This document shows, one piece after another, positions 2,029-58,075 of a stretch of DNA of 64,000 bases. The stretch's first letter is position 1. Every line of letters starts with the position of its first letter. Both the position numbers and the translations under genes were made by a program. This DNA comes from Diplonema papillatum (lineage: Eukaryota > Euglenozoa > Diplonemea > Diplonemida > Diplonemidae). The notes beneath the pieces are model-generated. The model saw only the letters and a list, made by a program, of their open reading frames with translations, searched no databases and was not told where the DNA came from. Location: the NCBI GenBank assembly GCA_030068145.1, contig JAPJBO010000092.1:248001-312000 (forward strand), given 5' to 3'.

Positions 2029-4137
2029 CTAAAGATAAAAAGATAGTATGCCGTAACGCCAAACAGAATGGGGAGTGAGCGGGCATACGTTGAGGACCGT
2101 CTCGCGCTGCGAGTTCGGGACGTGGGCGGGTTGCGTGGAGTTGTACGTGGGGATGGATCCGCCGGAGGACAGCGCCGAGTTGACGGGGAACAGCGGGAAC
2201 TGCCCGGTGTTCGCGTGCGGGGGTGCGTTGAAGGCGGAGTTGCCGAAGGCGGACGTGTTCGGCTGCGCCGGACCCAGCGGCGACGACGCGCGCAGGATCG
2301 GCGACTTCGACCGGAGCAGCGAGAGCTCGTCGGCCCGCGGGCGCCTCGGCGACGCGGCCGCGACGGGCGGCGCGGGTTCGAACCCGAACGAGTGGTCCGA
2401 AGACCGCCTGGGGTTCGACCCGTAAACGGCGTCGTGAATGCGCTGCGCAAACGCGTTGCCGCCGTCGGGCTTCGGCGGAGGAGCGCCGGCCGACATGACG
2501 ACACGGTCCCCCCCCCTCCCCGGGGTCGCAGGGCGGCTGGAGGGGTCCAAGAACGAGTTCACCGGCGAGGCGGCGACGTTCGCCACCGGCTGGTGCGGCA
2601 CGTTGTACCGGTCCTGGTCCCGCGCGTATACAGACGACCTGAAGTCCATCGGCGGCGCCGGCGGCAGCTGCGCGGGGTACTGCGCGTAGACCTGGGGCGG
2701 CGGGGGGTCCGCCATCAGGAACGGCCGGTCGCCCGCCGAAAAGCTCCGGCGGCGCGCGTCGTCGGCGGCGCTGCCGCTGGCCGAGTGCCCACCCGCGGCG
2801 CCGGACTCGGGCGCCGGCTCCTGCTGGACGATCGGAGGCAGGGGCGACGTGCGCCCTACGGACGTGTGCCCAGACGGCCCCCCCATGCTGTGGCTGCGGG
2901 TGGGCCTGCCCTTCGGCGGGGTGCCGGTCGACCGGTACTCGTCGAGGAGCGCGGCGAACGCCGGCACGAGCGGCGGCTGGCTGATGGGCGGGATCGCGCC
3001 GCTGGGGATGGGGTTCGTCCCGTAAAGCGGCGGGCCGAAGTCCTCGGGCGACGGCGGCCGCGAGCCGTAGGCGGCGGCGGGGTCGAACTTGCCGTCGTTG
3101 CCGAAGAAGTGCGACGGCACCGCCTTCAGCGGCGCCACCGTCGCCGATTCGCTGCCGACCGGGCTGACCCTGCCCCTCGACGACGGGCCCAGCAACGGCG
3201 ACCGCGGGGGGCCGCCCTGCCCAGACCTGTACTGCTGCTGGTGCTTCAGCACCATCCTCTGGAACTCCAAGTTCAGCGCGCAGACCAGGAACTGGTACTG
3301 CAGCTTCGTCTTGACCATCCCGGTCCGTTGGTACTTCAGGATTCGGACCACCTCCTTCACGTTGAGCTCCTTTTCCAACGAGAACAGCGCGAGGCAAACG
3401 TGCATCCCTATAAACACGCCGGTCCTCCCGACCCCCGCACCGCAGTGCACGAGAATAGGGTCCTCGATGGAAGCGTTGCATTTCCCCAGGGTCAGAATGA
3501 TGTCCATCAGCCCCAACGTGGTGCGGGGGACCTCGTCCCGCCAGCCGACGTACTGGAACTGCGTGATATTTCGCGTCATGCGGGTGTCCGAGTTCACCAA
3601 GATCAGGTCGCGTGTGATGACGTCATTCGTCCTGGTTGCTTTGACCAGCCGTACGGTGTACGACTGACGAGGCCGCATCATCCGTTCTGTGTGCTGCGGC
3701 CAGTACGTAGCCGAGTTCTCCTCGGTGGTCAGCATCACTATGAATTTGACCCCGCACTCTGCGACTAATCGCCAGAAGTCGCCGACGGTACCTTCCATGG
3801 GTGCCTGCGTCGCAATGTAGTTGAAGGGCAGGTTAAACAACCTCTTGCCGTCGATGTAGTTCGCGTTGATGTACGTGTTGTCATTCGGGCCGAGACTCGC
3901 TAGCGTGATCTTTGTGTGCTCGTTGGGCAGGACTTTAGGGTTTCGGTTCTTCGGTTGGTTCACGGGCTGGTTCCCAGTGACGAACTCGCCTGGTTTGTCT
4001 TCCATATCCCAGTCCACCTCCATCAACTCCTTGAACTCGGCATCAAGCGGGCAGAGCCCACCGGGGCCCCCGGGTTGCAGCAACGACTGCACGTACCTTT
4101 TGTACTGCGCAGCGAACCGCTCCTGCCATTGACTCAT
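2029..4137 (-). CDS. Classical protein tyrosine phosphatase with disordered C-terminal tail
   Basis: The intronless frame encodes 702 residues. Residues about 25-295 form a PTP domain that should hydrolyse phosphotyrosine. Visible motifs are a KNRNP variant of the KNRY motif (63-67), the NANYIDG substrate-loop region (91-97), a WPD-type loop reading GWRDEVP with the general acid at Asp201, the P-loop HCGAGVGRTG (231-240) with nucleophile Cys232 and Arg238, and a Q-loop ending LQYQF with Gln280. All catalytic residues are present, so activity is likely. Residues about 300-700 are rich in Pro, Ser, Ala and Gly, with no domain recognised and no TM segment, suggesting a cytosolic enzyme with a regulatory tail. 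The ATG at 4135-4137 lies 1 nt after an AG, as expected for a trans-splice acceptor. Very high GC creates long antisense frames here that are shadows. Confidence 0.93.
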   Translation of the reverse strand: MSQWQERFAAQYKRYVQSLLQPGGPGGLCPLDAEFKELMEVDWDMEDKPGEFVTGNQPVNQPKNRNPKVLPNEHTKITLASLGPNDNTYINANYIDGKRLFNLPFNYIATQAPMEGTVGDFWRLVAECGVKFIVMLTTEENSATYWPQHTERMMRPRQSYTVRLVKATRTNDVITRDLILVNSDTRMTRNITQFQYVGWRDEVPRTTLGLMDIILTLGKCNASIEDPILVHCGAGVGRTGVFIGMHVCLALFSLEKELNVKEVVRILKYQRTGMVKTKLQYQFLVCALNLEFQRMVLKHQQQYRSGQGGPPRSPLLGPSSRGRVSPVGSESATVAPLKAVPSHFFGNDGKFDPAAAYGSRPPSPEDFGPPLYGTNPIPSGAIPPISQPPLVPAFAALLDEYRSTGTPPKGRPTRSHSMGGPSGHTSVGRTSPLPPIVQQEPAPESGAAGGHSASGSAADDARRRSFSAGDRPFLMADPPPPQVYAQYPAQLPPAPPMDFRSSVYARDQDRYNVPHQPVANVAASPVNSFLDPSSRPATPGRGGDRVVMSAGAPPPKPDGGNAFAQRIHDAVYGSNPRRSSDHSFGFEPAPPVAAASPRRPRADELSLLRSKSPILRASSPLGPAQPNTSAFGNSAFNAPPHANTGQFPLFPVNSALSSGGSIPTYNSTQPAHVPNSQRETVLNVCPLTPHSVWRYGILSFYL

Positions 4138-5245
4138 CCTGCGACGAAGCGGCGGTGAATCGCCTTGATCGGTGCGGCCTCGGTTTCCAAGGAAGACCGC
4201 GCCAGCTTTTGCTTGACAATTCTGCTGACTTCTTCCTCCGGGTGGCAGGAAGGAGGGGGGGAAAGGGTGTGTCGGTGTGTCGGTGCGTCAGGGCGCCTCG
4301 CTCCCCCCGCCCGCCCGCTCCCCCCGTGCAGCCTTCTTGTGTTTTACTTCGAGTTTCCGGCGATCATTCATGTCTTCCGAGACATGAATGATCAGAAGTA
4401 TGATAGAAGCGCTGTCGGGCCAACCCCACTTTTCCGGGGCCCGAATAAGCATGAGGAAGGAAGTTCTGGGCACAGCCTCAACAGTGACAGAATGAGCAAA
4501 GAAGCGTGAATAGGATCCACAATTTTGCCTAAATATCCCACACGTGGGATGGCACCCTAAGCAGTTTTTTGATAAGTGGGCTGGCATGTAAGCCGTGTTT
4601 TTCTTTCTTCTAGCGTTTACTCCTTGCCCACTGCCTCATTTTCTGGGCCTGCTAATGAGTACTGCGCGCAAGTAACTGAGAAAGCGTGAGGTCTACTGGT
4701 TGCTGTGCACGGTCCGAATTCGGTTGGAAAACAATTCGGGTGACCTGTGCTTCAAGTGGGCAACGGGGGGCAACGATTCGAATCCGGGTGGAAGCGGAGC
4801 TAGCAGGTCGCGCACTCGCGCAGGCACATTTTGGGTGCACCAGCACTTGCCGCGGAGAACAAGGGCTTCAAGAGCTGGCACCGCAGAAACAGATAACGGG
4901 GTATCAATTCTGTGACGGTTCGGTGATGCGTCTCCCACCCCCCTTGGGGGGCGAGTTTGTAGACGGCAAGATGCACCTGACCACTGTCCGAATTGCAACC
5001 CAAGCCAGGTTTTCGAACGAAAGTCTGTTTCGGTCGCGCTCTGATCACAGTTTCTTGTCGCGACCTTTTCGTGAGATCAAGCAAGCGAGAATCGCCAGCC
5101 GTGATCAGCCATACAGTTCATTCGAACGAGCAAAGCATCGGCGGAACGCGAGAATCCACATCGAGGGGGTGCCCCCCCGGCGCTTTCAGCGCTAGCCTCT
5201 GTTGGCGTCTCACTTCGCACCGAGCCGGGCTATAAAGGACCATTC
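4138..5245. other. Intergenic, upstream of the phosphatase
   Basis: It contains a short hairpin (TTCATGTCTTCCGAGACATGAA at about 4366-4387) and an isolated B-box-like GATTCGAATCC near 4774. No gene is supported. Confidence 0.4.
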
Positions 5246-5496: not shown

Positions 5497-5565
5497 GGCG
5501 GGAATCGAACCACCGACCCCCAAACCCCTGTGTGGGTGTGGTAACCTCTGGACCATGGGCTAAAA
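5497..5565 (-). repeat. tRNA-like (SINE-type) unit
   Basis: On the minus strand an A-box-like TGGTCCAGAGGTTA precedes a perfect B box GGTTCGATTCC, followed by a T6 run. The acceptor and T stems do not pair well, so this is a tRNA-derived repeat rather than a working tRNA. Confidence 0.5.
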
Positions 5566-5764
5566 AAACGGCGGAGAAATCTTTTGTTCACTGCGGAGTG
5601 AGAATTTTGGACTCATTTTGAGTTCTTCGCAAACCGGGCGAAATAAGCTCCCAGAGGGCAGAAATACCGTCCTGGGACACTGGAAACGAGTAAATGACGA
5701 TCTCGCACTTTCCGATAAGAATTCCAACTGAGCAGGCGCTAAAAGCGAATTTTGGCCCGAGGTT

Positions 5765-5840
5765 TGGCAACATAGCCTAACGGTTACCGCACCCTCCTGG
5801 GCCCCCGTAGGCCTTGGTTCGATTCCCCCGGTCCGAATTT
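5765..5840 (+). repeat. tRNA-like (SINE-type) unit
   Basis: The A box TAGCCTAACGG and B box GGTTCGATTCC both match the Pol III consensus at normal spacing (about 34 nt), and a T-run of about 12 follows. The 7-nt acceptor arms do not pair, which argues against a functional tRNA. Confidence 0.5.
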
Positions 5841-6232
5841 TTTTTTTTTGCGATTTTTCGGTGTGAAAAGCAGCCGTCTGGAAACTATTTTCGAGGTCTT
5901 TTTGGGAAATCTTTTGGTTTTCGAGTAGTTCTGGGATGCGCGATTATGGGCAAGCTGCCAGCTAGCCCAGCGATCAAAATCTGACCCCCTCCTGGATGCA
6001 GAGAGAAAAAAAACCGATCTCCAGGACCCCATTTTTTCGGGTGCCGACCTCCATTTCCGGGGGGGGGTCGGTCAAATTTTTTATCCGACCAAATATTCGG
6101 AAAGCCCTGTCCTCAACGGATTCAAACGTCCTCAAAATCTCGAAACCGACCATTTTTGGACCTGCAGATGGAAATTTTCGGCAGAAGTCCGAAAAAAGCC
6201 GAAATCTGTGACACTTTTTCGTGGAATGAGTG

Positions 6233-6373
6233 GTATACATCTACCCCGCGGCAAATCCAGGAGGCGACGCAAGAAAGCCAGGGATGGTCCTTCATAGCCC
6301 GGCTCGGCTTTCTTGCGTCATAGCTCGGCATTCTTGCGTCGCCTCCTGGATTTGCCGCGGGGTAGATGTATAC
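6233..6373. repeat. Foldback hairpin repeat
   Basis: The left arm GTATACATCTACCCCGCGGC continuing through AAATCCAGGAGGCGACGCAA is repeated in perfect reverse complement at 6327-6373. The loop is about 45 nt. It abuts the 968-bp TIR element. Confidence 0.85.
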
Positions 6374-6462
6374 TACTGTGGTCAGAGACGGAGAGCACGC
6401 GGCAGGCAACCGGTTGCCTACGATGAAAGCGAATGGTATGAATTAAACTGGGTAAGTTCGGT

Positions 6463-8922
6463 TTAGTTGATCAGTTTTTCGATTGCGTGGTCAACCGACT
6501 GACCACGCTGGATCAGCTCTTCGAGTTGAGCGCAGAGGGCGACTGCGTCGCGGACTTTGGCTGCGAGGTCGACGAGAGATAGACCCATCTTCAAGTCGGA
6601 ATACAGAACCACGACTCCATCGGAGTCGAGGAATCGAGTGGTCGGCGACACCACCGGGTGTGAGTACCCCGCCGCCGCGAACAGCTTGCGCGACCCGGCA
6701 GGGAGGCCGTAGTAGTCGGCCGATACGAAATCGCCAAGGGGGCAGCACTCCAGCACGAGTACGTCCAGCAGTTCGTCAAACCGCTTGTGCACGCTGAGCT
6801 GTGGGATGCAAAGCGCGAAGCCTGCCGTCGCCGCGGCACCGAGATTGGCTGGATGGCTGGTCAGCCACCCGAGCGAGTCATCCGACGCAAACGGAAGATC
6901 GAGCTTTTGTAGCTCGCCGCCCAAGTCAGCGGCGGTGGCGACGATGTGCTTGAGCCCGACGCCGAAGTCGCCCTCCGTCCCGAAGCACCGCAGCTGGATG
7001 TGCTCGTACACGTTCACCCACAGCGCGAGCAGGACGCTGGGCGGCGGCCCGGCGCAGGTGCCGTCCTGTTTCTGCCCCACGACCAGAGGCTTCTGCGCCC
7101 CGGTCTCCGCGACCCAGCTCCGCTCGTGCGGCTCCGCGTACTTCAACTCGCCCGACCCGCCGTCGATCGGTTCCGACAGCCAGAACGACCGCCCGTCGGG
7201 CCAGTCGCGGTCCATGTTCAACTTTGAGTCGTACTCGTTCCCCCGCAGCGCCGGCGGCACCGCGACCCAGTGCCGCAGCCGCCGCAGCGCGTCCTCCGCC
7301 GCCGCCGAACCGCCCGCCTCGCCACCGTCCGGGCCGAAGGTCGACCGGAGCTGGCCCAGGTCCACCTCGCACAGACGCTTCGCCTGCGCCAACGCCTTGC
7401 GGACCGACGTGTTCACGAGCCGGCGCTCGCCGCGCCGGATTTTGCACGGAAACGAAATGCCTGCGGGGCAGGAGGAAATGAATGTGGTTTTGCGGGTTTC
7501 CCAGGCACAGATTCACCAAGAGCCAATATATGCACGCTCTGAACGGGGGGTTTTGGCGTCACTGCATGCAGTTCGGCACTGTGCGCAACTGGCCTGAAGT
7601 CGAGATCAAGGCCCACCCCTTTGATACAGAGGGGGATTGCGAGAACGTGCTTTGGAATGGGTATGTGCTCAACACCGCATTGGTCCCGTCTGCGCCGTGC
7701 TTCGGTCCTTTAAGCCACGGACACATAAGGCGGACCATCATCAGCGCGGAACCTGAGTGTCTGCAGACAGGACTGCGGTGTGAGTCTGGTTTGATAGAGG
7801 GGGGGGGTCGGGGATCGCCCCCGGCGAACAGTACGGTACGCGGTTGGTTGGGTGGAGGGACGGATACGTACACGAAAATCCAGCTTACAGGTACAACGGA
7901 CAAAGTCAAAAAGCAAGATCGGCTATGGGAACAAGTGGCGACAAGCGATTGATCTCGACTTCAGGCCAGTTGCACTGCGGTGCTCTCTTCCGATGGAGTG
8001 CTTCTCCCTTGCCAATTGCAGGTGGTTCGCGCAGTCCGTCGATGACGATTCCCCTTCTGCCTCTACCACTCGACCTCTAAAACCCGACCTCGCCGGATCC
8101 CAGCTCGACGCAGCAGTGCACTCGACCGCCCAGCCTGAGGCCGCAACCGTCTACTCCGACTCCTGACCCCACAGTGGCCCGACACCTACAACTTGTAGTG
8201 TCTTCTCGTTGAACGGTGGTATTTGAGTGCGGCACGGTGTTTCCTTTGTTTCTGCGCACGGGCGGAACTCGCCTGCTCGGTAAGTTTCATGCAGTACGCC
8301 GCCAATAATTTTTAATACCAACAGTTGTTGACACAGCAGTAGTAGTATTGTTAACACCAAAAAAAAAAAGGATACCGCTAACACTCCGTTCAAGGGTGAT
8401 GAAGTAGCCGAGCATGATGTCGCTGTTCTGACTAACAGCGTACGCGGACAAAGGGCGGGGCAGCGAAGATACCGTCGCGGGGTACAGGGCAGACGGGTCG
8501 AAGGTGGGGTGTCGAGCTTGGATGACTGGGAGAAACAGCTCGGAGAACACCGAGTAGCAGTGGCTGTCGGTGGCGACACAGCCGCAGGAGTGGGAGAAGC
8601 GGTACTCCGGGATGTCAACCGCGAGCTGGATGAGGTCGTCGACGACGGCGCCCTCCGGTGTCCTGTAGCTGCACATGGCCTCGTAAATCTCGCGGGTCAG
8701 GACTTTGGCAGCCAAGCTGAAGCAGTCGTCGAACTTGGGGTAGTTCACGTTTCCCTCGAGCTCCGCCGTCTCGCGCCTCTTTTCCTGCAGCACGTTCGTG
8801 CACTCGCCGATGATGAACAACAGCGGGTTGTAAGGCTCGTACCGCAGCAGCTTCTCGATGATGTCGTCAAACAGCTCCGGCAGGCGGTGCGACGCCAGAT
8901 ACGGCCGCGTCGCGAACGCCAT
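6463..8922 (-). CDS. Phosphagen kinase-like pseudoenzyme with N-terminal RIIa/DPY-30-type docking domain (2 exons)
   Basis: Exon 1 is 8922-8376 and exon 2 is 7460-6463, giving 514 codons. The donor is GTATCC, the acceptor CCGCAG and the phase fits. Residues 5-48 resemble an RIIa/DPY-30 dimerisation-docking helix pair (YLASHRLPELFDDII, YEPYNPLLFII), a module used to attach proteins in cilia and to A-kinase anchors. Residues about 65-150 match the phosphagen kinase N-domain (YSVFSELFLPVI). The catalytic domain follows: RRGERRLV across the exon junction region, DWPDGR at 268-273, WVNVYEH at 330-336, WLTSHPANLG at 381-390. Key residues are lost: the SSRVR arginine motif reads GYFIT (172-176), NEED reads NVYE, the reactive Cys is His385, and the RAS-V-H arginine is gone. 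About 45 extra residues precede WVN. I infer a catalytically dead scaffold or regulator, perhaps flagellar. The ATG directly follows an AG. Confidence 0.88.
7583..7973. mobile_element. Intronic inverted-repeat element
   Basis: The left arm GCAACTGGCCTGAAGTCGAG and the right arm CTCGACTTCAGGCCAGTTGC are exact reverse complements, about 390 bp apart. The interior holds a repeat also found at 35609-35735. There is no coding capacity. Confidence 0.7.
7643..7766. repeat. Dispersed repeat, copy in intron
   Basis: The block TTTAAGCCACGGACACATAA and its flanks, about 120 bp, recur at 35609-35735 at roughly 90% identity by eye and in the same orientation. Confidence 0.8.
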
Positions 8923-9835
8923 CTTCCAAAAACTCGGCACAAAACAATCGGTAGGGTTGCTGCGCAGCAGAACCCCGTATTTAAAACAGATACACCGTCA
9001 GAATCCCTTTCGTGGGTCAATTCTACGACAGGCGCTTCGCTTTGTGGTTGTGGGTGGCCGATGCGGCGCACCGTCGCATTGGATTTGAGGTCGGGAATTC
9101 CTGGGGGCCGCGGGTTCGTTAAAAAAGTGTGGAAAAAGACAGGCTTCGATTTGGTTTTGTGCGACCACCCACCTGTTGCAGGGATGCCGGAGCATATATG
9201 GGTGCGCTCCTATGTGATGTGGCGGACGCTTTGAGTTGCTCGAGAGCTGCCCCACGGTGTCCCAGATTTCAATCAAAAATCCTTGACCTGGGTGCATTTT
9301 TTTCGGAGTTTACGTACCTTGCAGAAAGCCGTGATCCTGGTGCTTGCCCACGCCTTGGAGGGCGTTCGCCTGCTCAAGAATCAGCTCGACCCTTAGATGT
9401 ACGCGAGGTAGGACGTATGAGTAACCTGGGATATCCCCCCAAGGTGTCCCAGATTTTCCCCGGTCTGCCATTTACCCGTTCAGCTTTGGAGTGTTCAGCT
9501 AGAAAAGCTGGACGACGCGCGACTTCGCAGTGTTGCAGCAGTGAACTGTGTGTCCTTCAGACCGGATGACAGGTTCGAGTGCTTTCGAGCTTTCTCTCAT
9601 CGTCTTAGTGTGCGGTTGCGTGCACCGACGACTGAGCCACGCCGTGCTTTCGCTGGACACTGTGCGCTTCGGCGGAAAATTGTGGGGACAAAAATGTGGT
9701 CTACCCGCTGATGACCGCAGAGTGGACGTCAGAGAAGCACAGCCGACTCTCTCCCTCTAGCATGGAAATGGTATACGGGAGAGCAGCGCGGCGGCCGGGA
9801 ACAGTGAGTTTGTTGTCCTAGTGAGCTCTATACTT

Positions 9836-9836
<1 letters not shown>

Positions 9837-9872
<36 letters not shown>
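9837..9872. repeat. Poly(A) tract, 36 bp
   Basis: An uninterrupted A36 run. I could not find a retrogene or a target-site duplication around it. Confidence 0.9.
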
Positions 9873-9874
<2 letters not shown>

Positions 9875-10027
9875 GAATGTAGGCTGGAAACAGCAAATGC
9901 ACCCCTAACGGGCGAGGGGAGAGATTCTTTGACGGAATTCTGCAAACAGCTGGGGCACGGATGTGTGTCTTGTTTTGGGATTCAGGTGTGTGTTGTTTTG
10001 AAACCGGTGCTTGAAGACAGGAGGTTG

Positions 10028-12391: not shown

Positions 12392-13042
12392 TGAACCTTG
12401 TGTAGTTTGGTGTGAGGTCAACGGCAATGTTTGTGGTGTGTTCCTGAATGATCAAGGAGTATCGAACACCCCACGTACTTGCAATATCCCACCCAAAACA
12501 ATTTTTATGCCCTTGTATCCAAACTGGGCAACCTGGGGGCGAGCGAGTGAGTCATTCCGTTACGACCCAAAGAGAGACCTTCTTGTGCGGCGCCGCAGCC
12601 CCTTTCAAGTCACTTTTGTGATGCAGGCTGAAAGAGGAAGCAGGGTTTTAGACAGCCAGCAAACAACGGCGACGTCCCTTGCGCTGGAAAGCGAGGTGAC
12701 CGCACCCGATGGCAAGACACTTGGAGCGGAAGAAATGTGTCGCTTTTTGTTTCGACAACAAGAGTTCGACGAACTGAAGACGTTGCGGCTAACGGCTGGA
12801 CGGGCGCGAGAGACTAACTGAGGCGAAATGATATACACGCCATAACGGAGGTGTCACCGACGCGAGGCTATATTCTCAGAAGTGCTTTGTCAGCCGGTAA
12901 AAGGAAGTACGAGCAGAACTGCGTAATCAGACAGAACCGCTGTGCCAAACAAAGGAAAGGAGCAGCTACCCAGGCAAAACACTGAGTGGACTACAAACTC
13001 TTGCGACGAAGCACTGCCAAAGGCCGACAGTATGTGCCAAGC
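12392..13042. other. Intergenic, nothing convincing
   Basis: A plus-strand frame crosses this stretch to 12821 but has no recognisable motif and opposes the gene direction. A decayed copy of the adjacent 176-bp repeat may begin at about 12990. Confidence 0.4.
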
Positions 13043-13518
13043 TGCACGCCACTCAAACACTCGGCCCCTCACGGCGTGAAGAAAAGGTTTTCGGACTGCA
13101 ACGGAATCCGCAACGCGCCGCAACCCAAAGCGAACTGTTCGACCGCCATGATGAAAGGGTCCTGCAAATCAAGCGCTGCGCTGCGACAGCCCGGCAGCGC
13201 ACATTTGCCATAAAAAGTTGCACGCCACTCAAACACTCGGCCCCTCACGGCGGGAAGAGAAGGTTTTCGGACTGCAACGGAATCCGCGACGCGCCGCAAC
13301 CCAAAGCGAACTGTTCGACCGCCATGATGAAAGGGTCCTGCAAATCAAGCGCTGCGCTGCGACAGCCCGGCAGCGCACATTTGCCATAAAAAGTTGCACG
13401 CCACTCAAACACTCGGCCCCTCACGGCGGGAAGAGAAGGTTTTCGGACTGCAACGGAATCCGCGACGCGCCGCAACCCGAAGCGAACTGTTCGACCGCCA
13501 TGATGAAAGGGTCCTGCA
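13043..13518. repeat. 176-bp tandem repeat, 2.7 copies, overlapping a gene's 3' end
   Basis: The unit starting TGCACGCCACTCAAACACTC begins at 13043, 13219 and 13395, exactly 176 bp apart. The third copy runs into the C-terminal codons of the EF-hand gene. The outer two copies carry extra reading of the same last about 35 codons, so the array arose by tandem duplication of the gene's terminal coding segment plus downstream DNA. Confidence 0.9.
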
Positions 13519-15806
13519 GCTCGCGCCGCAGCGCCACCGCCGCCCGCGCCGGCCGCGCGACGCCCCGCATGAGCGCGTCGGCAGCCTCGCCGCGGAGCTG
13601 CGCGTGCCGCTGGATGCCGGCCAGGGCGAGCTGGGCGACCCCGGCTAGGTTGTCGTTCCGGACGACAGCCGCCGGCGCCTCGGACGCACTCCGCAGCCCT
13701 AGCTCCCCGAAGATGCGCCTCGTCGCCGCCCGGTACTTGTCCTTGATGCACCGCAGGTCCCGCGGCGAGGCCAGGAACGTCGGCGTCTCCGCCAGCACGT
13801 CCACCGGCCTCCTCGCGACGGAATGCGACCCCCGAGCCGCGCCCGCCGCGGCCGCAGCGGGGGAGAGCAGCCTCGCCTGGGGGGGCTGCTTCGAAAGCAG
13901 CGTCCGGCGGCTGGAAACCGGCGGCGGAGAGAGCGCGGCCCGGGTTTCTCCGCCGGGTCCCGGCGAAGCCGCGCGGGACGATGAGGGAGGAGGAGGAAGG
14001 GGAAGAGGAAGAGGAGGGGGAGGAGAACTCGCCAGTCTGCTGGGAGGCGGCGTTCTCAGCGCCTTCCGGGTGGATGCGGCCGGCGCGCTGGCGGGTGCCT
14101 GCGGGGGGCCGGAGGCCGGCGGCGCTTGGGTCTTCCCTATGTACACCACGTTCCGGGAGTGCTGCTGCCGCGGGGCTTGCGGCTTGGGCCTGGACGGCAA
14201 GTTCGCGCGCCGGGCCGCACGCGAGCGCCGCCGCTGCGCCGGGCTGCGCGGCGGCGCGGGGAGGTCGGCCGAGCTCGCGGGCTGCTGCCCTTGCTGCTGC
14301 TGCTGCTGCGGCGGCGGCGCTGCGGCGGGCCCGCCGGTCGCAAGCAGCGCGTGGGCGGACGGGAAAGGCACCGGGGTGATGCGGTGGAGGCGCGCGGCAA
14401 GCAGCTGGGCCAGCCCCGCGCTGTCGGGGGCCGCCTGCGCCGTGAACCCGTCGAGCGCAGCTTTGAGCTGCGCCGCGTCGTGGATCGACCGCCGGCGGTC
14501 GTTTCCCCGCCGGTCGGCGCTGCCCCCGGCGCCGGCCGCGCCGCCCGCCAGCTCGGCGCCGTCGAACCCGAAGAGACTCTTCCGCCTCCCCGCTGCCGAG
14601 CTCCCGCCGGCTTCGCGGCCTTCGCCGGCGTGAGAGGCCTGGTCGCTGCCGTCGGCCGGCGTGTGCGACCCGCCGCTCCCGGCTTCGTTCTTCGAGGTCG
14701 ACGGCTCTCCGATGTCAAACATCGCGGAGAACTCGTCGAAGTCTATGAATCCCGAGCCGTCCCTGCAAGTGTGCGTGTGTTTAACCACTTCCGGACGAAG
14801 TGCCACTGTAGTGGTAGTTAACTCACGAAAGTTCGCGGGTGTCACGTTCGCGGACGAGAGGTCAAATAATGGTCGAAAGTGGTCGCTGTTTGCTGGATCG
14901 GAAGATCCGACACAAATCTTTGAAATGCGTCCTTCACCCGGGCAGAAATCCTGCTCCGAGCTCCAACGGATACCTGAGATTCGCCATGGAGCCACCCCTT
15001 TTCCCAAATTAACCCTGCCCCCCTCCGTCCTTAAGTGGTTAATAGTCCATGGCTCTAAGTGGTATCGGATGATGAGATAACCCACGTGTCACTTTCGCCA
15101 GTCGACTCTGAGTTTTCGACACGAAGGGTGGGTGGGCCGGAATCCTTTGGGGACGGATAGAGCGTGAGAGCTTGTCAGCTTCACCATCCGGCACTCGGCT
15201 CAAGGCTTCGTGGTTGGGCTCTTTCCTGTTCTCTTCACTCGCCGTTTCAAGCACCTTTTAGAGACAAGGTGCCCCCCTACCCTATAAAACGAATGTTTTT
15301 GCATACGTGTCGACTTCCTGTATCATCTTTTCGATGTCGATGGTCAGGTGGAAGGCCTTCACGGTGAGGCGGAGAACGTTGACGTCGACGCCGCCTTGCT
15401 TGTCCTTGCGGCCGCCCAGCGCGGCGAAGGCCTCGACGGTGTCGGGGACCGCCTCGTCGAGGTCACGTCGCTTAAGAACCTCCATCAGCCGCAGGAACCG
15501 TTCGATGGCCATGGTCGAGTCATTTTTGTACAGCGACAGGTCCAAGAGCTCTTCGAGCTCCGCTTCGCCGACGGACTGTCCGAGGGTGCGCAGCAGGTCG
15601 AGAATGGCGGGCCGGCTGTTCACGCACGGCGTCGCGTGGTACGCCGCCTTGATGGCGGCGACCTCACGGCCGTGCAGCGCCAAACGGGTCCGCCTCTTCA
15701 GCATCGACACGGCCCGCATCACCGCGATGTACGTGGCCACCGTCCGTTCCAGCCGCTTTCTCACATGGCAGCGCCGCCTGCTTATCCGCTCCGACCCGTC
15801 GGGCAT
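13421..15806 (-). CDS. EF-hand protein with long Pro/Ala/Ser-rich, poly-Q-containing tail (2 exons)
   Basis: Exon 1 is 15806-15307 and exon 2 is 14762-13421, giving 613 residues. The donor is GTATGC and the acceptor CTTGCAG. The intron interrupts the last EF-hand: joining gives DTDGSGFIDFDE at 166-177, a canonical calcium loop with Asp at positions 1 and 3, Ser at 5 and Glu at 12. Residues about 45-165 read like earlier calmodulin/centrin-type helices with degenerate loops (around LYKNDSTM and ALGGRKDKQGG). The N-terminal 45 residues are basic and helical. From about 190 the protein is low complexity, with a short poly-Q run, many Pro, Ala and Ser, and Arg/Lys patches. The function is probably calcium-dependent, perhaps cytoskeletal, but that is inference. 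Its last codons lie in a tandem repeat, so the natural C-terminus may have been changed by duplication. Confidence 0.82.
14763..15306 (-). other. Intron of the EF-hand gene
   Basis: The 544-bp intron runs from GTATGC to CTTGCAG. It carries the dispersed repeat at 15076-15175. Splicing is supported by reconstruction of a perfect EF-hand loop and by a total length divisible by three. Confidence 0.82.
15076..15175. repeat. Dispersed repeat, related copy of 10028-10165
   Basis: It shares TGTCACTTTCGCCAGTCG and GGGACGGATAGAG blocks in the same order with the copy at 10028. It lies within an intron. Confidence 0.65.
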
Positions 15807-18384: not shown

Positions 18385-19189
18385 TTTTATTGGGAAAAAT
18401 AAATTCCCTCTGGTGGAAATGGCTTGAGGGGCGTGACGATAAATTTCGTTTATTTTTTGACAGGATTCCGTTGTGTTTACACAGGCCGGACAAATAAACG
18501 AATTTATTTTTTCCGATCTCGGAATTTATTTTGCGCCGCCAGCTATTTTCAGTCGAAACAAATAAATGAAATTTATTGTCCCTAGGGAAATAAATTCGTT
18601 TATTTTTCCGACTGAAAATAGCTGGCGGCGCAAAATAAGGTCGTAGGCAGAAATCTGTAGGGGAGACCCCTCGCAAATTTTTTTTTCTCCCTGTGGTGAG
18701 TGAAATCGCGTGTTTTGAGCTCGTTTTGAGTCTAATTCATCCTTTCTGATCCATATCAAGACCTCGCAGAAAGAAAACCGCAGCACTTGTCAGCAGCGCT
18801 CATCCAACAGTCCTACCCAGCACGACAGCACCTGTGCAGTCCTTCATGCAAGCGCCCATGCAAGCAGCATCGTATGTTGTGAACTACAACGTCAACCTGC
18901 CGGGACTCCCCCAGTTGCAGCAGAACAACCAGGCACATTGATCTGTGACCCGTCACTTACAACAACTCCACTCCTACACAACGTTCTGCTACGCAATGTC
19001 TCAGACACACAACGTTCTGCTACGCAACGTTCTGCTAAACACCAACGTAACTGCAAAGCAATATGCTCAACGTCTTACACAACGTTCTGCCGTGCACATT
19101 TGCTACGCAACGTTCTGCTAGACACCAACATAACTGCAAAGCAGTATGGTTTTCTTTCCATCCTCGGGAATTTAGTTTTCCCAATAAAA
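18385..19189. mobile_element. 805-bp TIR element, non-autonomous
   Basis: The left end TTTTATTGGGAAAAATAAAT (18385) and the right end ATTTAGTTTTCCCAATAAAA (to 19189) are near-perfect inverted repeats of about 24 bp. Inside are a 27-bp inverted pair (18529-18555 and 18609-18635) and a set of imperfect repeats of ACAACGTTCTGCTACGCAAC at 18970-19130. There is no transposase. It abuts the foldback copy at 19196. Confidence 0.75.
18529..18635. repeat. Internal hairpin of the 805-bp element
   Basis: TTTTGCGCCGCCAGCTATTT (18529) pairs with AAATAGCTGGCGGCGCAAAA (to 18635); the arms match over 27 bp with a loop of about 53 nt. Confidence 0.9.
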
Positions 19190-22818: not shown

Positions 22819-24717
22819 TCACTGAGGTGTGATTAATTGTCGCGTTTTTAATTCTGGCGGACAGGCAAATCCAGAACTAAAAACGCCAGAATTACCGTCT
22901 ATCCTGTAGCTCTCCCGCAACAACAAGCTGGGAGAGGCGTGAGCATACCTCGAGAAGCCGGGTTGGCCCTTTTTGAGCTTGTCGAGCTTGCCGAGTGAGG
23001 CGACGCTATCGTAAAGTGTGTCGCCCGTGGGCTTCGGTTGGTGGCCCATGCGGGCCGTGCCTGAAGACATGAGGCCTTTGCCGGGCAACGCTTTGCCGAA
23101 GGTGGAGTTGTACGCTTTGCGCGAAGGGCCTGGGGAGGTGGGTCGCCACTGGCCGGGGGTGTCGTCCAGCCGTGTGACTTCCGGGTACGGCATGCCCGCG
23201 GTGCCTGTGTAATCTCCGGCGTCGGGGTCTTCGAACCATCGCCCAAGCAGGTCGCTGTGGGAGAACACCCAGCCGATGGCGGAGTCACCGTCGTTCAATC
23301 TCCACCTGCCGTCTTGCGTCCGGTACAGAACCGCGCCGCCTGCTTCCTTCTTGTACCGCTGGGTGACTCCCGCTTTCTCGTCGGACGGCCATTTGTGGAC
23401 GCGCCGGTACCTGCCGTTCAAGTTGGTCTTCAGCCCCTGCCGCTGCACGTTCGAGACCATGACGGCGACGGGGTACTGCCGCGCCGCCGCCGCCGCCCCG
23501 CCGCCGTTCTGCCGGCCGGCCGGCTGCGACGAGGATCGCAGCAGCGGGTGCAGCGGCTTCGAACCGGACCTCGAGATCGACCGCGTGCCCGACCTGCGGC
23601 CCCGCGCGTTGCTCGGCGGCGTGTGCGACCGGTTGTGCCGCGCGGAGCCGTGCTGCTGCCAGGGGCCCGACGCCCCCATCGACCGCCCCGGGTCCGTTTG
23701 GTTGAGGTACGCCGCGTCGCCTTCGTGGTAGCGGCCGGCGAACTGGCCCGAGCTCGCGCGGCTTGCCCGCTCCCGCTGGGGCGAGTCGGGCCGGTGCTTG
23801 CAGAACGCGGAGCACGGCTCGTCGATAGAGTGGTCGTGCCCCGCCGCCGCCGCCGCCGGAACAACCTCCATCATGTCCTGCCGCACGGCCGCCTCCGCCG
23901 CTTCCTGCCGGGTGCGATGCGGGGAGCCGGACACGTTCACCCTAGGCTCGACGCCGCCGTACGCTCCCGACATCAGCACTTCGCCGACGGGCTGCAGCTC
24001 CCTCTCGTGGGCTTCCTGGCTGAGGCGGTGCGCGGCTTGCATGGCGAGAGTGTCCGGGTGCTGGGCGTATGACGACATGGGGGTTGCAAAGGGTGCAATC
24101 GGGTCCAAGGTGCGGAGGTAATCCGCTATCCACTGGACAGTTCCCGGCTCGACGGAGTGCAGCCACGTCATGAACCGGTGGGACGTGATCCGATTATCCG
24201 CGGAGCACACGGGGACTAAAGGGTGTAAAGGGTTGCGGAAGACGTCTCTCGCCACGTCCGGCTGGTGCCGGAACACGTGGAGGACTTCGGGTTCCGTTAC
24301 GAAGGACGCGGGCTGGCTGCCTGCGCGGATGGAGATCTCCGCGAACAGAGCGTCGGAGTCCATGACGAGTGACCCGGTCGGCGGTCCGAAAGCGAGCCTC
24401 ACGCTGCCGTACGGGGGCGCCGGGCTGAGGTGGGGCCTCGCGGCGCTGAGCCCGAAGTCGAGACCGGCATCCAGCGGGCCCAGCTGCGCGAGGCTGTCGG
24501 GGCGGTCGTCCCGCGGCGGCGAAGGCGACACGTCCTTCCGCATCGGCCTCACCTCCTCCGGCCGCAGCCCGGCGGCGAACGTGCCGTCGTTCCAGCTCGC
24601 GTCGAGGGTTCCGTTTGCGTTGATGCACCGCACCGTCGCCCGGTACCAGCCCGACCCGTACGACACTTCGACCTCCTGCCCCGGCCGGTACCTTTCTATG
24701 GGCTCCGCGAACTGCAT
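22819..24717 (-). CDS. Tudor/SH3-like domain protein with C-terminal NGRY...DGRW domain
   Basis: Starting at the ATG 24715-24717 the protein has 632 residues. Residues 8-58 form a small beta-barrel domain of the Tudor/SH3-like kind (GQEVEVSYGSGWYRATV, then WNDGTFAAGLRPEEVRP), which could bind modified peptides or act as a protein-protein module. Residues about 60-415 are mostly Pro, Ala, Ser and Arg-rich. Residues about 417-497 hold a second domain (LNGRYRRV, AVLYRTQDGRWRLNDG, GWVFS) resembling a repeat found in many protist proteins that alternates NGxY and LYxxxDGxW motifs. The last about 28 codons overlap an AT-rich hairpin (22850-22895) and may be altered or read past a splice site. An in-frame extension to 24876 exists but begins without ATG. 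Cellular role unknown. Confidence 0.8.
   Translation of the reverse strand: MQFAEPIERYRPGQEVEVSYGSGWYRATVRCINANGTLDASWNDGTFAAGLRPEEVRPMRKDVSPSPPRDDRPDSLAQLGPLDAGLDFGLSAARPHLSPAPPYGSVRLAFGPPTGSLVMDSDALFAEISIRAGSQPASFVTEPEVLHVFRHQPDVARDVFRNPLHPLVPVCSADNRITSHRFMTWLHSVEPGTVQWIADYLRTLDPIAPFATPMSSYAQHPDTLAMQAAHRLSQEAHERELQPVGEVLMSGAYGGVEPRVNVSGSPHRTRQEAAEAAVRQDMMEVVPAAAAAGHDHSIDEPCSAFCKHRPDSPQRERASRASSGQFAGRYHEGDAAYLNQTDPGRSMGASGPWQQHGSARHNRSHTPPSNARGRRSGTRSISRSGSKPLHPLLRSSSQPAGRQNGGGAAAAARQYPVAVMVSNVQRQGLKTNLNGRYRRVHKWPSDEKAGVTQRYKKEAGGAVLYRTQDGRWRLNDGDSAIGWVFSHSDLLGRWFEDPDAGDYTGTAGMPYPEVTRLDDTPGQWRPTSPGPSRKAYNSTFGKALPGKGLMSSGTARMGHQPKPTGDTLYDSVASLGKLDKLKKGQPGFSRYAHASPSLLLRESYRIDGNSGVFSSGFACPPELKTRQLITPQ
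22850..22895. repeat. Small hairpin at a gene's 3' end
   Basis: GCGTTTTTAATTCTGG is mirrored by CCAGAACTAAAAACGC. It lies inside the last codons of the Tudor-like gene, so either the C-terminus was acquired from an inserted element or coding ends differently. Confidence 0.6.
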
Positions 24718-24892
24718 CCCGGGCGAAGGATCCTTCTTTTCTTTATATCGCTTCTTCTCTCCTCTCCCACACCCCGTCGCCGACCGCCTCCACCCCCCCT
24801 TTACAATTGCGTTGTGGGTACTAAAAATTAGTGGTTGGCAGCGTACTTGGTACGAAAACGCCTCGAAACTCCGCACTGCGTAGTTCCTGCGT

Positions 24893-25165
24893 ATAAGTCG
24901 ATCTTAGAGTGCGTGAGCCCCTCCGAAGAAAGGTCTATCGCACGAGTTCCAGGCCACTTAGCCCGGGTCTCTGGGTCGCGTCCCCCTCCTTCTCTTGGTC
25001 GTCTGATCTTGCGTCTTGTTGCGCAGTTTGTGCGCATAAGTCGATCTTTGAGTGCGTGAGCCCCTCTGAAGAAAGGTCCATCACACTAGTTCCAAGCTAC
25101 TTAGCCCGGGTCTCTGGGTCGCGTCCCCCTCCTTCTTTTGGTCGCCTGGTCTTGCGTCTTGTTGA
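24893..25165. repeat. 143-bp tandem duplication
   Basis: The blocks starting ATAAGTCGATCTT begin at 24893 and 25036 and remain alignable through TAGCCCGGGTCTCTGGGTCG to CTTGCGTCTTGTTG. The two copies show roughly 10% divergence by eye. Confidence 0.85.
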
Positions 25166-35886: not shown

Positions 35887-37537
35887 GAGACAAGTTGAAG
35901 GGTAGGAATCTCGCGCACCTTCGCACAACTGCCGGAGGTGACAGAAAGACTACCACAGAGCAACTGGCTTGCGCCAGCCAAGCTCTCATAGCGACGTTGC
36001 GTTTTGATCCTTCGATGTCGGCTCTTCTTGACAAGCAGAATTGTCTAAGGGTTGGATTGTTCACCCACTAACCGGGTGGTTGTGACCGTCGTGCGAAGAG
36101 CCCACCGGGCTCTCTCTCCGCGCCGGCCTTTCTGTCACTTCCGTGGTCGGTTTTTAGCTGTCCACTCCCGTCGCACGGTTCGTTGAAACGGAATGACCTG
36201 TTGCTGCATCCGCCCTCAGACCACTCGCGAATGTACATCCCTCTGAACGCGCTTGGCAGGGCTGCTGAACGCTAAAATCTGACGGTCGCTGCCCGTTTCT
36301 GCCGAAGGCGCGCCCACGTGGTGGATTGATATGTCCACCGTTGCCCAAGGCACACTCCTACCGCTCAAAGCGCGACTGCTGTGTTCGTGAGTGTAAGGTG
36401 AAAGCCAAGCGGAGCGTATGCAATACTTCGGACCCGAAACATGGGCCAAGTACGAAGAGAGTGGTGAGGCATAAACGAAACGGGCGATTCTCCTGCGATG
36501 CAGGTGGCCGCTACATGGAGGAAGGTACGGTGAAGAGAGCCTTAGGATGCTGGGAGGTAGCGGGGAGCAGGCAGAGAGGTAGATTAACCCTGATGCAAGA
36601 ATAACGATGGTTCGCAGAACTTGGGCGACAGGGAAAACGTAAAAAGAAAAAAGAAAAACGGATTGGTCCCGTCGGTTTTTTGGCATGTAGCATGCTGATG
36701 CCGGTTGGGTCGACGATTATCTTTTGATTGTGTTGCGGAAGAAATGTGAAAACGGAAATACGGGTGTTCCTCTACGAGGGCAAGATGTACCGGAATTGAT
36801 ACACGTACGGGCGTACACGTGGGTGCATTCCGGCCTTTTGTTTGTTTGCGAGGTTCAGTTTAGGACATGCTTTTGCAATCGAGGGTGGGGAAAACTTTGA
36901 GATTGTAGACTTCAACTCGGTCATGCTGGGGTATGGCTAATTTTAGAGTTTTTGGAGTGAAAGTTCGCTTGAAGATCCGGGTTTTTTGTGGTTCAAGCGT
37001 TCGGTATATTAGTCTCCAGTTGACCGTATCGTTCGAAGTAATGTTTGGGCCTCTTTCCGCCGGCTTCTGGTAGCGGGATACCTCAGGAGGGTATGCATGA
37101 TTACATGGTGTATGTGGTGGGTGGGGCGATACCACAGTCCTCAGGAGCTCCTGAGGTGGGTGCGTGCTCACACGGACCTCGGGATCATTTCCGGCACGCG
37201 TCACGTTGCGTCGCCCGTAGACTCTCGCAACAGTGCCACAGTCCCAAGCACCGCGAATAGTGCTCGTCAGACGGCCGGCCAGTCCGGAGCCTTCTGCAGA
37301 CCAGGGCCGCGCAGGTCCGTCGCTCGTGTGGATCAGTTTGCTTCAGCGGCCGGATCAACCCGAGAAGGAATCGTGCTGCTATGGAAGGCGGCTGTGGAGA
37401 CACTGCGTCCGGCAGTGTATCATTTGTCCAGCAATGATTTTGTTTGGACTGATGAGGGCAAGAAACTACTGCGACGCTGCCTCTCCAAGCAGGTCTGTTG
37501 CAGGTTTTCGTTCATAATAAGGAACAATGCTGTTTTG

Positions 37538-41584: not shown

Positions 41585-41690
41585 ACACGGCGAAGTCCAG
41601 CCTCAGAAGCTGGAATGAATGCGGGCATGCCCGAAACACACCCGAAAAGCGCTTTTTAACACAAGCTTCCGACGCTGGACTCCGCCGTGT
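41585..41690. mobile_element. 106-bp MITE-like hairpin element, copy 2
   Basis: The left arm ACACGGCGAAGTCCAGCCTC pairs imperfectly with the right arm ending GACGCTGGACTCCGCCGTGT. It shares its arms with 35771-35886 but the loop differs. Confidence 0.8.
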
Positions 41691-42420
41691 ACCTTGTTGG
41701 CAAGCAGCTAAGATATCCGGAATGTGGCGCAAGCCGCTTGGGGACACAAGCGTCGAGGTAAGTCTCCTGGAATGGGGTATCCACTGAGGCATTTCCTCGA
41801 CGAGCCATGGTGGTTAACTCCTTGCTAGCACGAGCCGCTCAGTTTGGGAATGCTGAGCTAATCGGCAGGTATCCCTCTGCTAAGGCTACATATCTCCCGG
41901 AGGCCGATAACCAGGCAAAGCTCGGCGAGAAGTGTCCGGGAGGCGCACAACATCGATACCAAGCGTGCGGCCGGACCGCACTTTAAGTAGAGCCTCGGTG
42001 GCGCGTCTTTCTTCGAGATTTTTGATGCCCCCTTGGGCGCCCACTTTTCAGGTAGCGCTCTCCGAACCAGGTCCTGGCACGTCGGAGGCAGTGTACGAAG
42101 GGCTTCGTGGCCGTGAGTAAAATGGGTTTTTTAAGGGTTAAAGTTCGCTTGAAATTCCGGAGTTTTAGGGTCTCCGTGTGACCGTTCATGAATGGGTTCT
42201 CTTGGAGCAAGAAAGGGCTATGTGGTTACGGGTTGTATATTTAGTGCACGCTTTCGTTATGGGTTATGGCTAGCCATGTCCGGGACTGTTTGTGACCGAC
42301 ACCAAGTACATTCTTTCGTGGAGTGTAGTCTTGGGCCCCCCACGTTCTACAAGTTGAGCAGGGGTTGCCTTGTAGCCCGTACCGGTCTGTTGTCCGCGTT
42401 TATATGGTACGATGCCAAAA
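41691..42420. other. Intergenic, nothing convincing
   Basis: No gene, RNA or structured repeat was recognised here. Confidence 0.4.
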
Positions 42421-53905: not shown

Positions 53906-55646
<1,741 letters not shown>

Positions 55647-57698
55647 CTACCAAATTAGTAGGAAACAAGAGAGCCGACCCTCGCTAGCTGCTTTTGTCCA
55701 GGTCTTGTTGCCCACGTGAGAAATGCACTCGCATACGATAGCCCCGGATTGCTGCAAGACGGTGACGACTACGCCAAGAATACCGGTGACCACTCCCCAA
55801 AGCACAAGAAGATTGTACATCCAATTGCGGGGATCCGTCAGAACCTCTCGCACCTGTTGCCAGTACGACATGCGACGCAATTGAGTGGCGACCAGGGGTG
55901 CTGACTCGTCTGACTTCCCTGATCGGTTCGTTTTCGACTCAGCGGAGCCTTCGCTTTCACGCTGGACTTGAGTCGAGTTGCCTTCTACAGATCCTCGTAT
56001 CGATCGCTGCCTCAGCACACAGTACATGATTGGCGGGAAGATGTACACCATGCAGCTTCCGAAAATAGCACCTGAGTATGGCGGTTTGGAGTTCGGACAA
56101 GCTGAATTGCACTGGTTCACGGTGGTATCGGAAACCTAGCATCACCAACAGCCGTAGTGAACTTGGCTATGTGCTGGCATACGACGGGTGTTCGGTAACC
56201 GCTGAGATGAGGGACGCGCGCTCTGATCCAATTCGAATTTGTCAGTGTTCCCAGATGGCATACCCTTGTAAGCTAAGACGACCTCAACCTTGGTAACGGT
56301 TACACCTACTGTGGTGGAGATCACAATTATCGCCGCTGTGATGAGCAGGAACTCCTTTGTCGGGCAGCTGTCGGTGGTGTACTTGCCGTCCCAGTACAAG
56401 TCGATGATAGAGTCGCGGATGAAGTGGCAGACCATCGGGAAAGTAAAGATAACGAGACACGCGAGCGCCAGGCGTGCCACGACAGCGGGACTCCACTTGT
56501 CCGAGAAATTTTTCAGAATGTCGCCGTCGATCTGGTTGCCAAACACGAGATACCCAGTAACGGCTGCCGCGGCGTATATCATCATCGCGAACGTCATCAC
56601 CACGAACACCACGATGCTCCACCGACGCGGTGTCCGATCCTTCAACTCGTTGTAATAACTGTGCGAAGTTGGAAGATTATTATTTGCACGCCTGAACACG
56701 CATAGATTTGAAGGCATGCGCTGCACGGGCGGCACCTTCGAGCGGCGCCGCGTGTGAAGCCTTAATGCGCAATACATACCGAGGGGCGTTGTAGTGGCAA
56801 GTGAATGCGACGTTAACGAGAGGCAGCGCCGCAAATACGCCGACGGGGAATCCTGTCGAGTTTGTTAAAAGTGGCTGGGCAAGTATGAAAACACGTCTGC
56901 GTGGCTAATAAACGGCAAACTGCATCAGGCGAAGCAGCAAGTCAGCTGCCAACTTCCAGCAGCCTTCTCAGCATATATCCGGAAAGGGAAAGACAAACCA
57001 ATGTAGTCGACTGAGTCGCGCAATTCCTCCGACTGGTTTTTGAGCTCCGGAGGGAAGACATCATCGTTGTCAAGAGCCAGAGCCCACACGCAGACTGCGG
57101 CAGCGTACATGGTGGCCAGAAGTGAAACTGACGACGTGTACTTCAGGGGCTCCAAGTTGCGCATGCATGACAGAGGGAAAAATACGAACACCGCGACCCC
57201 CGACATAATGAGCCATCGTTTGTGCAACCACTCGTTGCTGCTCCAGCTATCCAACACACCGGTCCCACTGCCGCACAGGAAGTCTCCGGTTAAGACAACA
57301 AACGAGATGCAGCTCCCGCAGCCGTACATCAAAACTATGATCTGTGCTGCGAGACCTCCAGTGCGCCCGAAGGCTGACTGCATCATCTTCAAGTACGAGC
57401 ACGTGCCTGCTAGTTCGCAGCACTGTGCGAGAAGGATGAAAGAAAGCGCATTGAGGACTCCCATGAAGACCATCATGCACATCCCGGTCACGAGGGTCGA
57501 CTCGTACAGGCACCACGACAGCGAGAAAAGTCCTGCCCCCACCACATTGTTAAGAAGGTTCAACATGCTGGCAAGCATTGAAGCTTCGCTGCGGAGATGG
57601 TCATCTCGGTCGTGGAATGTGGTCTTGTCCCATTCATCGTCTTGTTCACTGCCGAGAGTGGACGTCGTCTGCGACCAGCGATCCCGGTCTTGGCCCAT
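55647..57698 (-). CDS. Amino acid/auxin permease (AAAP, SLC38/AVT-like) transporter (4 exons)
   Basis: Exons 57698-56999, 56852-56780, 56658-56264 and 56071-55647 join to 530 codons plus stop. Introns are 146, 121 and 192 bp, with donors GTTTGT, GTATGT and GTATGC, all ending in AG. The protein starts with a hydrophilic tail, then NLLNNVVGAGLFSLSWCLYE, the conserved first TM of AAAP/SLC38 transporters (N-x-x-x-G-x-G). About 11 TM segments follow; the family's mid-protein motif is rebuilt across two junctions as VAFTCHYNAPRYYNEL, where SLC38/AVT proteins typically read F-A-F-x-C-H-x-N. It is probably a proton- or sodium-coupled amino acid carrier of the plasma or a vacuolar membrane. The short 73-bp exon 2 encodes the motif. 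The final loop (SRGSVEGNST to KSDESAP area) is hydrophilic and the last TM is near the end. Substrate cannot be read from sequence. Confidence 0.9.
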
Positions 57699-58075
57699 GT
57701 TTTTGGCGGGATCGTATTGATCTTTCTCTATGTCGTCCTACTGAGCAAGTTGACAGAGCAAAATACATTTGAGGCATGCTTGTCAGCCGAGTACAACTCA
57801 GCCACGCACGAGCCTACCAAAAGAACGCCTTCATCAGTTGCTCGTTTCGTTGAACGGTTCTGCTTTATGAGTAACGACTTTCGGCGCTGTCCGAGTGACG
57901 ATGTCGTAACAATGCACTGGCTGTTGTCGTGCGTTCCACCTGAACATGCCCATCGAAAAGAAGAATGAAAAAACATGCGGACGCTACTCGATTTTGCCTA
58001 CTCTGAATAGAGTGGCAGACAGCCGTCTTGCAGGTGGTCAAAGAACCGGAAAACTCTGCAAATAAATGAGACTCG
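57699..58075. other. Intergenic, nothing convincing
   Basis: Short spacer between the transporter and helicase genes, with no recognised feature. Confidence 0.5.

Follow-up and report, generated by a model that had tools for sequence, protein, structure and literature searches.

The cytosolic creatine kinases, represented by solved structures from Torpedo (1vrp) and rabbit (2crk and 8ci4), are the closest described sequences (best E value 2.3e-27) to the protein considered here, which is the predicted product of a gene at positions 6463..8922 of a 64,000-nucleotide stretch of Diplonema papillatum DNA (contig JAPJBO010000092.1, positions 248,001 to 312,000 of the forward strand; hereafter, the window). 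In fold searches with low-confidence models of both exons of the gene, these enzymes come first or near the top, and of the 9 creatine kinase dimer contacts considered, 7 are kept in the studied protein. In contrast to the creatine kinases, the studied protein has lost ligand-site residues, is ∼25% identical in the C-terminal lobe (C-lobe), contains two insertions in that lobe, and carries an extra, putative docking domain at its N terminus.

Other described systems share single traits with this protein. AK3 of Trypanosoma brucei is an active arginine kinase. Like the studied protein, it is a phosphagen kinase of a euglenozoan and is extended at its N terminus; in AK3, the extension directs the enzyme to the flagellum and consists of a short targeting sequence of the calflagin type, not of a docking/dimerization (D/D) hairpin (PMC4517888). 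AK8, AK7, NME5, and phosphopyruvate hydratase are proteins of energy or nucleotide metabolism in which a stretch matches a typed RIIa/DPY-30-type consensus, but they belong to other enzyme families. The D/D superfamily has been described as having 18 members, including AK5, AK8, and EFCAB10, and the words arginine kinase, creatine, and guanido are absent from the accessible text of that paper (PMC8339350). A literature search of titles and abstracts, with partial coverage, found neither a RIIa/DPY-30-bearing phosphagen kinase nor a separate phosphagen-kinase pseudoenzyme among the matches listed. Some arginine kinases have two domains, one of which is weak or dead. McsB is a bacterial, active protein-arginine kinase, and four NCBIfam models of the McsB type match residues 328-417 of the studied protein weakly (E values of 1.8e-09 to 3.3e-06, all far under the cut-off, with two weaker rows); unlike McsB, the studied protein is without the catalytic residues and has a phosphagen kinase N-domain.

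An earlier note on this DNA had described the gene product as a catalytically dead phosphagen kinase with a complete fold signature and a docking domain. The ancestry proposed there is borne out by both Pfam domains and by matches to solved phosphagen kinases. In the 514-residue protein, the two domains of the phosphagen (ATP:guanido) kinase family each exceed their curated cut-off, PF02807 with an E value of 1.1e-17 (64.7 bits, cut-off 25.7) and PF00217 with one of 4.8e-10 (39.6 bits, cut-off 22.4). Because the PF00217 match spans only profile positions 64-147 of 203, the word "complete" is slightly strong for the C-lobe, which is covered in part. Among solved structures, creatine kinases are the closest (Torpedo, 2.3e-27), followed by glycocyamine kinase (1.9e-19) and arginine kinase (7.1e-17). 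The exons were modeled separately with AlphaFold, using an alignment of 30 of 80 bacterial arginine kinase loci; these 80 were kept from 148 confirmed loci (264 pattern matches) in prokaryote genomes and were of use as an outgroup only. Although the models have a low mean predicted local distance difference test (pLDDT) score (56.4 for exon 1 and 50.2 for exon 2), creatine or glycocyamine kinases came first among the Foldseek matches listed for both of them. VIA-align and fold search with the exon 1 model gave phosphagen kinases among the matches listed, and the 50 of 89 fold-search matches listed for this model are kinases, in a comparison that barely probed the docking part. No confirmed relative was found in two scans of viral contigs.

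On this sequence evidence, the protein resembles creatine kinases more than arginine kinases, and it would be a phosphagen kinase by descent and not by activity. The predicted fold is recognizable, the residues that bind phosphate and guanidine are nearly all replaced, and a putative D/D-type hairpin stands in front. We favor, with somewhat better than even confidence, the reading that it is a dimeric, non-catalytic scaffold or tether of the creatine kinase branch, a pseudoenzyme held in place by its docking domain and most likely flagellar.

The loss of active-site residues was assessed in an alignment of the studied protein with Limulus arginine kinase, a piece of Torpedo creatine kinase, and 77 bacterial arginine kinases (three of the 80 loci were left out, two for want of a parsed frame and one because it has <330 residues). 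The alignment used was made with MAFFT; an hmmalign version lost the C-lobe. All of the replacements that had been reported earlier, namely those of the SSRVR arginines, the NEED glutamates, the reactive cysteine (His385), and the arginine of RASVH, were confirmed (Table 1). Losses beyond that list are R229Q (Gln338), S122G, and H284A, and E314, H315, and D324 are, by the alignment, probably lost too. The protein does not have the residue set of an active enzyme (five phosphate-binding arginines, the NEED glutamates, the reactive cysteine, and His284), and it reads H-P-A-N-L-G-A at residues 385-391, where active phosphagen kinases follow the pattern C-P-x(0,1)-[ST]-N-[ILV]-G-T.

Our list of ligand-site positions is a working list, apart from S122, H185, H284, R124, R126, R229, and R280, which are named in PMC12467219. 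At ligand-site positions with ≥97% conservation, 2 of 20 residues are kept (His185 and, where the alignment is uncertain, R309) and 18 are changed, compared with 35 kept and 53 changed at the 88 other positions that are equally conserved (Fisher p = 0.017). The difference was also seen when positions from 290 on were omitted (1 of 16 ligand-site positions kept versus 30 of 74 others, p = 0.009) and when only columns also identical in creatine kinase were counted (1 of 12 versus 26 of 56, p = 0.021). Because so few ligand-site positions are kept compared with other near-invariant ones, the predicted residue loss is heavier at the active site than elsewhere, even though the whole protein has diverged. 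The catalytic loss claimed in the earlier note therefore appears to go beyond general divergence.

The two lobes differ in their identity to creatine kinase. In the N-domain, 34 of 85 residues (40%) are identical to positions 26-110 of the Torpedo enzyme (Limulus arginine kinase, 36 of 81 or 44%), and at creatine kinase positions 161-313 the count is 38 of 153 (25%), whereas that of Limulus arginine kinase is 74 of 147 (50%). Of the nine creatine kinase dimer contacts considered, D54, D62, R148, R152, R209, D210, and W211 are kept. K196 is lost, and E18 lies opposite V59 in an alignment with the rabbit enzyme, outside the aligned Torpedo piece. When 12 positions were compared with Torpedo creatine kinase, 10 were identical; three of these, positions 55, 58, and 151, were left out of the count of contacts. 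At position 267, the Torpedo piece has Ala and the 514-residue protein has Leu. Limulus arginine kinase, which is monomeric, differs at five of the seven kept contacts (D54, D62, R148, R152, and D210). We take R152, R209, D210, and W211 to be dimer-contact positions of creatine kinase. The D54-R148 bridge and the dimer roles of D62, K196, and E18 are described for creatine kinase in PMC7934860, and PMC3457962 places residue 267 at the interface of the brain enzyme. Since most of the contacts considered are kept, the idea of a subunit becomes more concrete, and the protein may dimerize through the kept creatine-kinase contacts, the D/D hairpin, or both.

The same contacts bear on a more specific form of the scaffold reading, in which the protein is an obligate heterodimer partner that positions an active creatine kinase through its docking domain. 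Such a role would fit the keeping of most dimer contacts while the catalytic lobe drifted, as well as the creatine-synthesis genes that diplonemids are reported to have gained, and the protein may pair with a creatine kinase that is active in the same cell. However, the kept contacts would suit a homodimer equally well, and K196 and E18 are not kept, and we put forward the obligate heterodimer as a tentative idea that is less likely than not.

The few ligand-site residues that survive are relevant to the proposal that the protein is still an enzyme, or else a sensor of a ligand, whose chemistry has changed and whose remodeled pocket (His385, Tyr334, and Gln338) binds or turns over another molecule. 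His185 is kept, R309 is aligned with Arg440, albeit in an uncertain stretch only, and the fold is recognizable, all of which would be compatible with a working pocket. Against this, the protein has lost its catalytic glutamate and no fewer than four of the five arginines that bind phosphate, which makes it unlikely that nucleotide is bound in the known way. The residues at the active site also predict no activity on creatine, and we consider a changed chemistry to be improbable.

The putative N-terminal domain was the part of the earlier description that fared less evenly: a home-made D/D profile places it far above controls, but curated Pfam models miss it, so that a check with hidden Markov model profiles gave matches to the ATP:guanido phosphotransferase domains and none to RIIa/DPY-30. 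Specifically, the Pfam RIIa and Dpy-30 models matched neither the whole protein nor two pieces of its N terminus at E ≤ 10, and they did not match residues 1-66 at E ≤ 0.5. The home-made profile was built from five hand-aligned solved domains (EFCAB10, AK8, RI-alpha, RII-alpha, and DPY-30), and a typed D/D consensus matches Pfam RIIa at 2.4e-10; solved chains that match typed D/D consensus queries include AK8, AK7, NDK5, and phosphopyruvate hydratase (7n6g_6G). Four of the five profile members came from a query containing the ends and a few inner letters of the studied protein, which may favor the match, and shuffling does not remove this bias.

Residues 5-40 align without gaps to RIIa/DPY-30-type domains. 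Against the five-member profile, the N terminus had an HHalign probability of 91.66, compared with maxima of 9.82 for 400 shuffles and 4.88 for 300 pieces of bacterial arginine kinases. The leave-one-out comparison used other match-state settings than this run; with like settings, the value was 91.58, the N terminus scored 88-91 against four-member profiles, and the true members left out scored 90-96. In hmmsearch, 1 of 5000 shuffles outscored the N terminus against the D/D profile, and the sole higher-scoring frame of 3243 background frames was the same gene unspliced. The exon 1 model places helices at residues 14-27 and 33-53, with a mean pLDDT of 38-55 in those blocks. Taken together, the D/D profile evidence for a docking domain is good but not final.

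The N-terminal hairpin could instead be an ordinary extension or some other pair of targeting helices. The absence of a Pfam match, the scores slightly under those of true members, and a phmmer search in which residues 1-66 gave only unrelated matches (a designed binder and two chains of MinE, E ≥ 0.4) would agree with such an origin, but the HHalign values of the N terminus lie far above those of the shuffles and kinase pieces, and the D/D pattern fits without a gap. We regard this explanation as unlikely. If the N terminus is a D/D domain, as the scaffold reading holds, it would bind an amphipathic helix of an AKAP-like or radial-spoke-like scaffold, and the protein would be a subunit that gives structure or acts as a tether and has no catalytic role. 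The flagellum is deemed its most likely location because other energy enzymes there carry such domains, although both the flagellar placement and the partner kinase are guesses.

The two-exon, minus-strand gene of the earlier note is upheld by its joined open frame of 514 residues, its GT-AG intron, and its codon signal. In each of the two exons, the codon score is highest in the gene's own frame among the six frames, and the GC content at third codon positions is 0.85 (exon 1) and 0.84 (exon 2), compared with a GC content of 0.55 in the intron. For these reasons, positions 6463..8922 are, by composition, a real coding gene. A frame error was rejected because, in both exons, the codons of the right frame are used as in the host. 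In the alignment, both C-lobe insertions relative to related proteins fall within exon 2. A different splice that restores the catalytic arginines or the NEED motif would have changed the prediction, but inspection of alternative junctions and all six frames revealed none. Eleven donor/acceptor pairs, including the chosen one, preserve the open frame; the other ten give a longer or shorter stretch at the junction, none of them adds a catalytic motif, and the two earliest alternative donors would remove the GYFIT loop. Across positions 5500-10000, none of the six frames was found to contain an intact active-site motif that another splice could add. The sole candidate for a hidden or alternative catalytic exon, a loose R-x-R-x-x-R match at 6628, was rejected; it lies in another frame and has no family context.

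A young pseudogene that merely resembles a divergent gene is very improbable, since although many conserved residues are gone, the 1.5-kilobase frame is open, codon use in the right frame is host-like, the splice sites are intact, and the losses are concentrated at ligand positions.

Two repeats lie in or next to the gene. Within the intron is a 389-nucleotide element (7585-7973) with perfect inverted ends of 25 nucleotides that resembles a small transposon; no other copy of its ends is present in the window at ≤3 mismatches. Shortly beyond the stop codon, at 6229-6377, is a 51-nucleotide inverted repeat (96% complementary, 47-nucleotide loop).

Table 1. Positions of the features of the kinase-like gene (numbering of the window; residues of the 514-residue protein)
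Feature	Position	Strand	Residues	Remarks
Exon 1	8376..8922	-	1-182 and base 1 of codon 183	Putative docking domain, N-domain of the kinase, altered SSRVR loop
Intron	7461..8375	-		915 nucleotides, GT-AG; donor GT at 8375, acceptor AG ends at 7461
Exon 2	6463..7460	-	Bases 2-3 of codon 183, 184-514, stop	Kinase C-lobe with two insertions
Putative docking/dimerization (RIIa/DPY-30-type) domain	8803..8910	-	5-40	D/D profile match, HHalign 91.7
Phosphagen kinase N-terminal domain	8518..8727	-	66-135	PF02807
GYFIT in place of SSRVR	8395..8409	-	172-176	Two phosphate-binding arginines gone (R124F, R126T)
RGERR	7420..7434	-	192-196	Equivalents of creatine kinase R148 and R152 kept
RDW	7201..7209	-	267-269	Equivalents of creatine kinase R209, D210, and W211 kept
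Phosphagen kinase C-terminal domain core	6760..7026	-	328-416	PF00217
NVYE in place of NEED	7003..7014	-	332-335	E224V, E225Y
HPANLGA in place of CP[ST]NLGT	6835..6855	-	385-391	Reactive cysteine to His385 (C271H)
TAGFA in place of RASVH	6814..6828	-	394-398	R280T (Thr394), H284A (Ala398)

The surroundings of the gene fit what has been described for this organism. Two pieces of 28S ribosomal RNA are found on the plus strand, at 35962-36102 and 41676-41930, the latter just under the gathering score; their order is wrong for a 28S gene, as model positions 2828-2984 precede 105-358. Besides the kinase-like gene, 7 of the 14 minus-strand frames scanned have a Pfam match at E ≤ 0.01, compared with 0 of 10 plus-strand frames. 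The form of the diplonemid spliced-leader core that was sought is not present in the window at ≤3 mismatches. For Diplonema papillatum, PMC10161547 reports scattered 28S pieces (∼3600), clusters of genes with probable co-transcription, mostly GT-AG introns with a median of <1 kilobase, and transposable elements in introns. The 28S pieces, the genes on one strand, and the GT-AG intron of <1 kilobase in the window agree with these traits.

Several other features of the window were recorded. A protein-tyrosine phosphatase frame (PF00102, E = 8.7e-58) lies at 2029-4287 on the same strand as the kinase-like gene. At 56142-57737, also on the minus strand, one of two adjoining frames matches the first part of the PF01490 amino-acid transporter family and the other matches the second part; because these parts are successive, the frames are probably one gene with an intron. 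Two tandem repeats, one at 24877-25164 (143 nucleotides x 2.0, 90%) and one at 13039-13518 (176 nucleotides x 2.7, 98%), overlap the ends of the minus-strand frames 22819-24903 and 13421-15088, respectively, and recall the repeat-bounded genes described for Diplonema. An (AC)388 microsatellite with 99% matching occupies 53908-54681. Plant MIR2119/MIR4208 models match the minus strand at 18503-18660 below their gathering scores, probably by chance, perhaps on account of an inverted repeat.

If the dimer face and the docking module were kept without catalysis, as we propose for the Diplonema protein, this would show that a scaffold can be made of the phosphagen kinase fold, and the flagellum could place its energy buffer by docking, a route that is testable. 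It is conceivable, though more doubtful still than the obligate heterodimer, that a family of D/D-anchored pseudo-creatine-kinases, of which the studied protein would be the first member, docks active creatine kinase in the flagellum through mixed dimers in creatine-making diplonemids. If this were true, the dead subunit would set the site of the phosphagen buffer, and the finding of a pseudo-creatine-kinase would tie in with the creatine-synthesis genes reported from these organisms.
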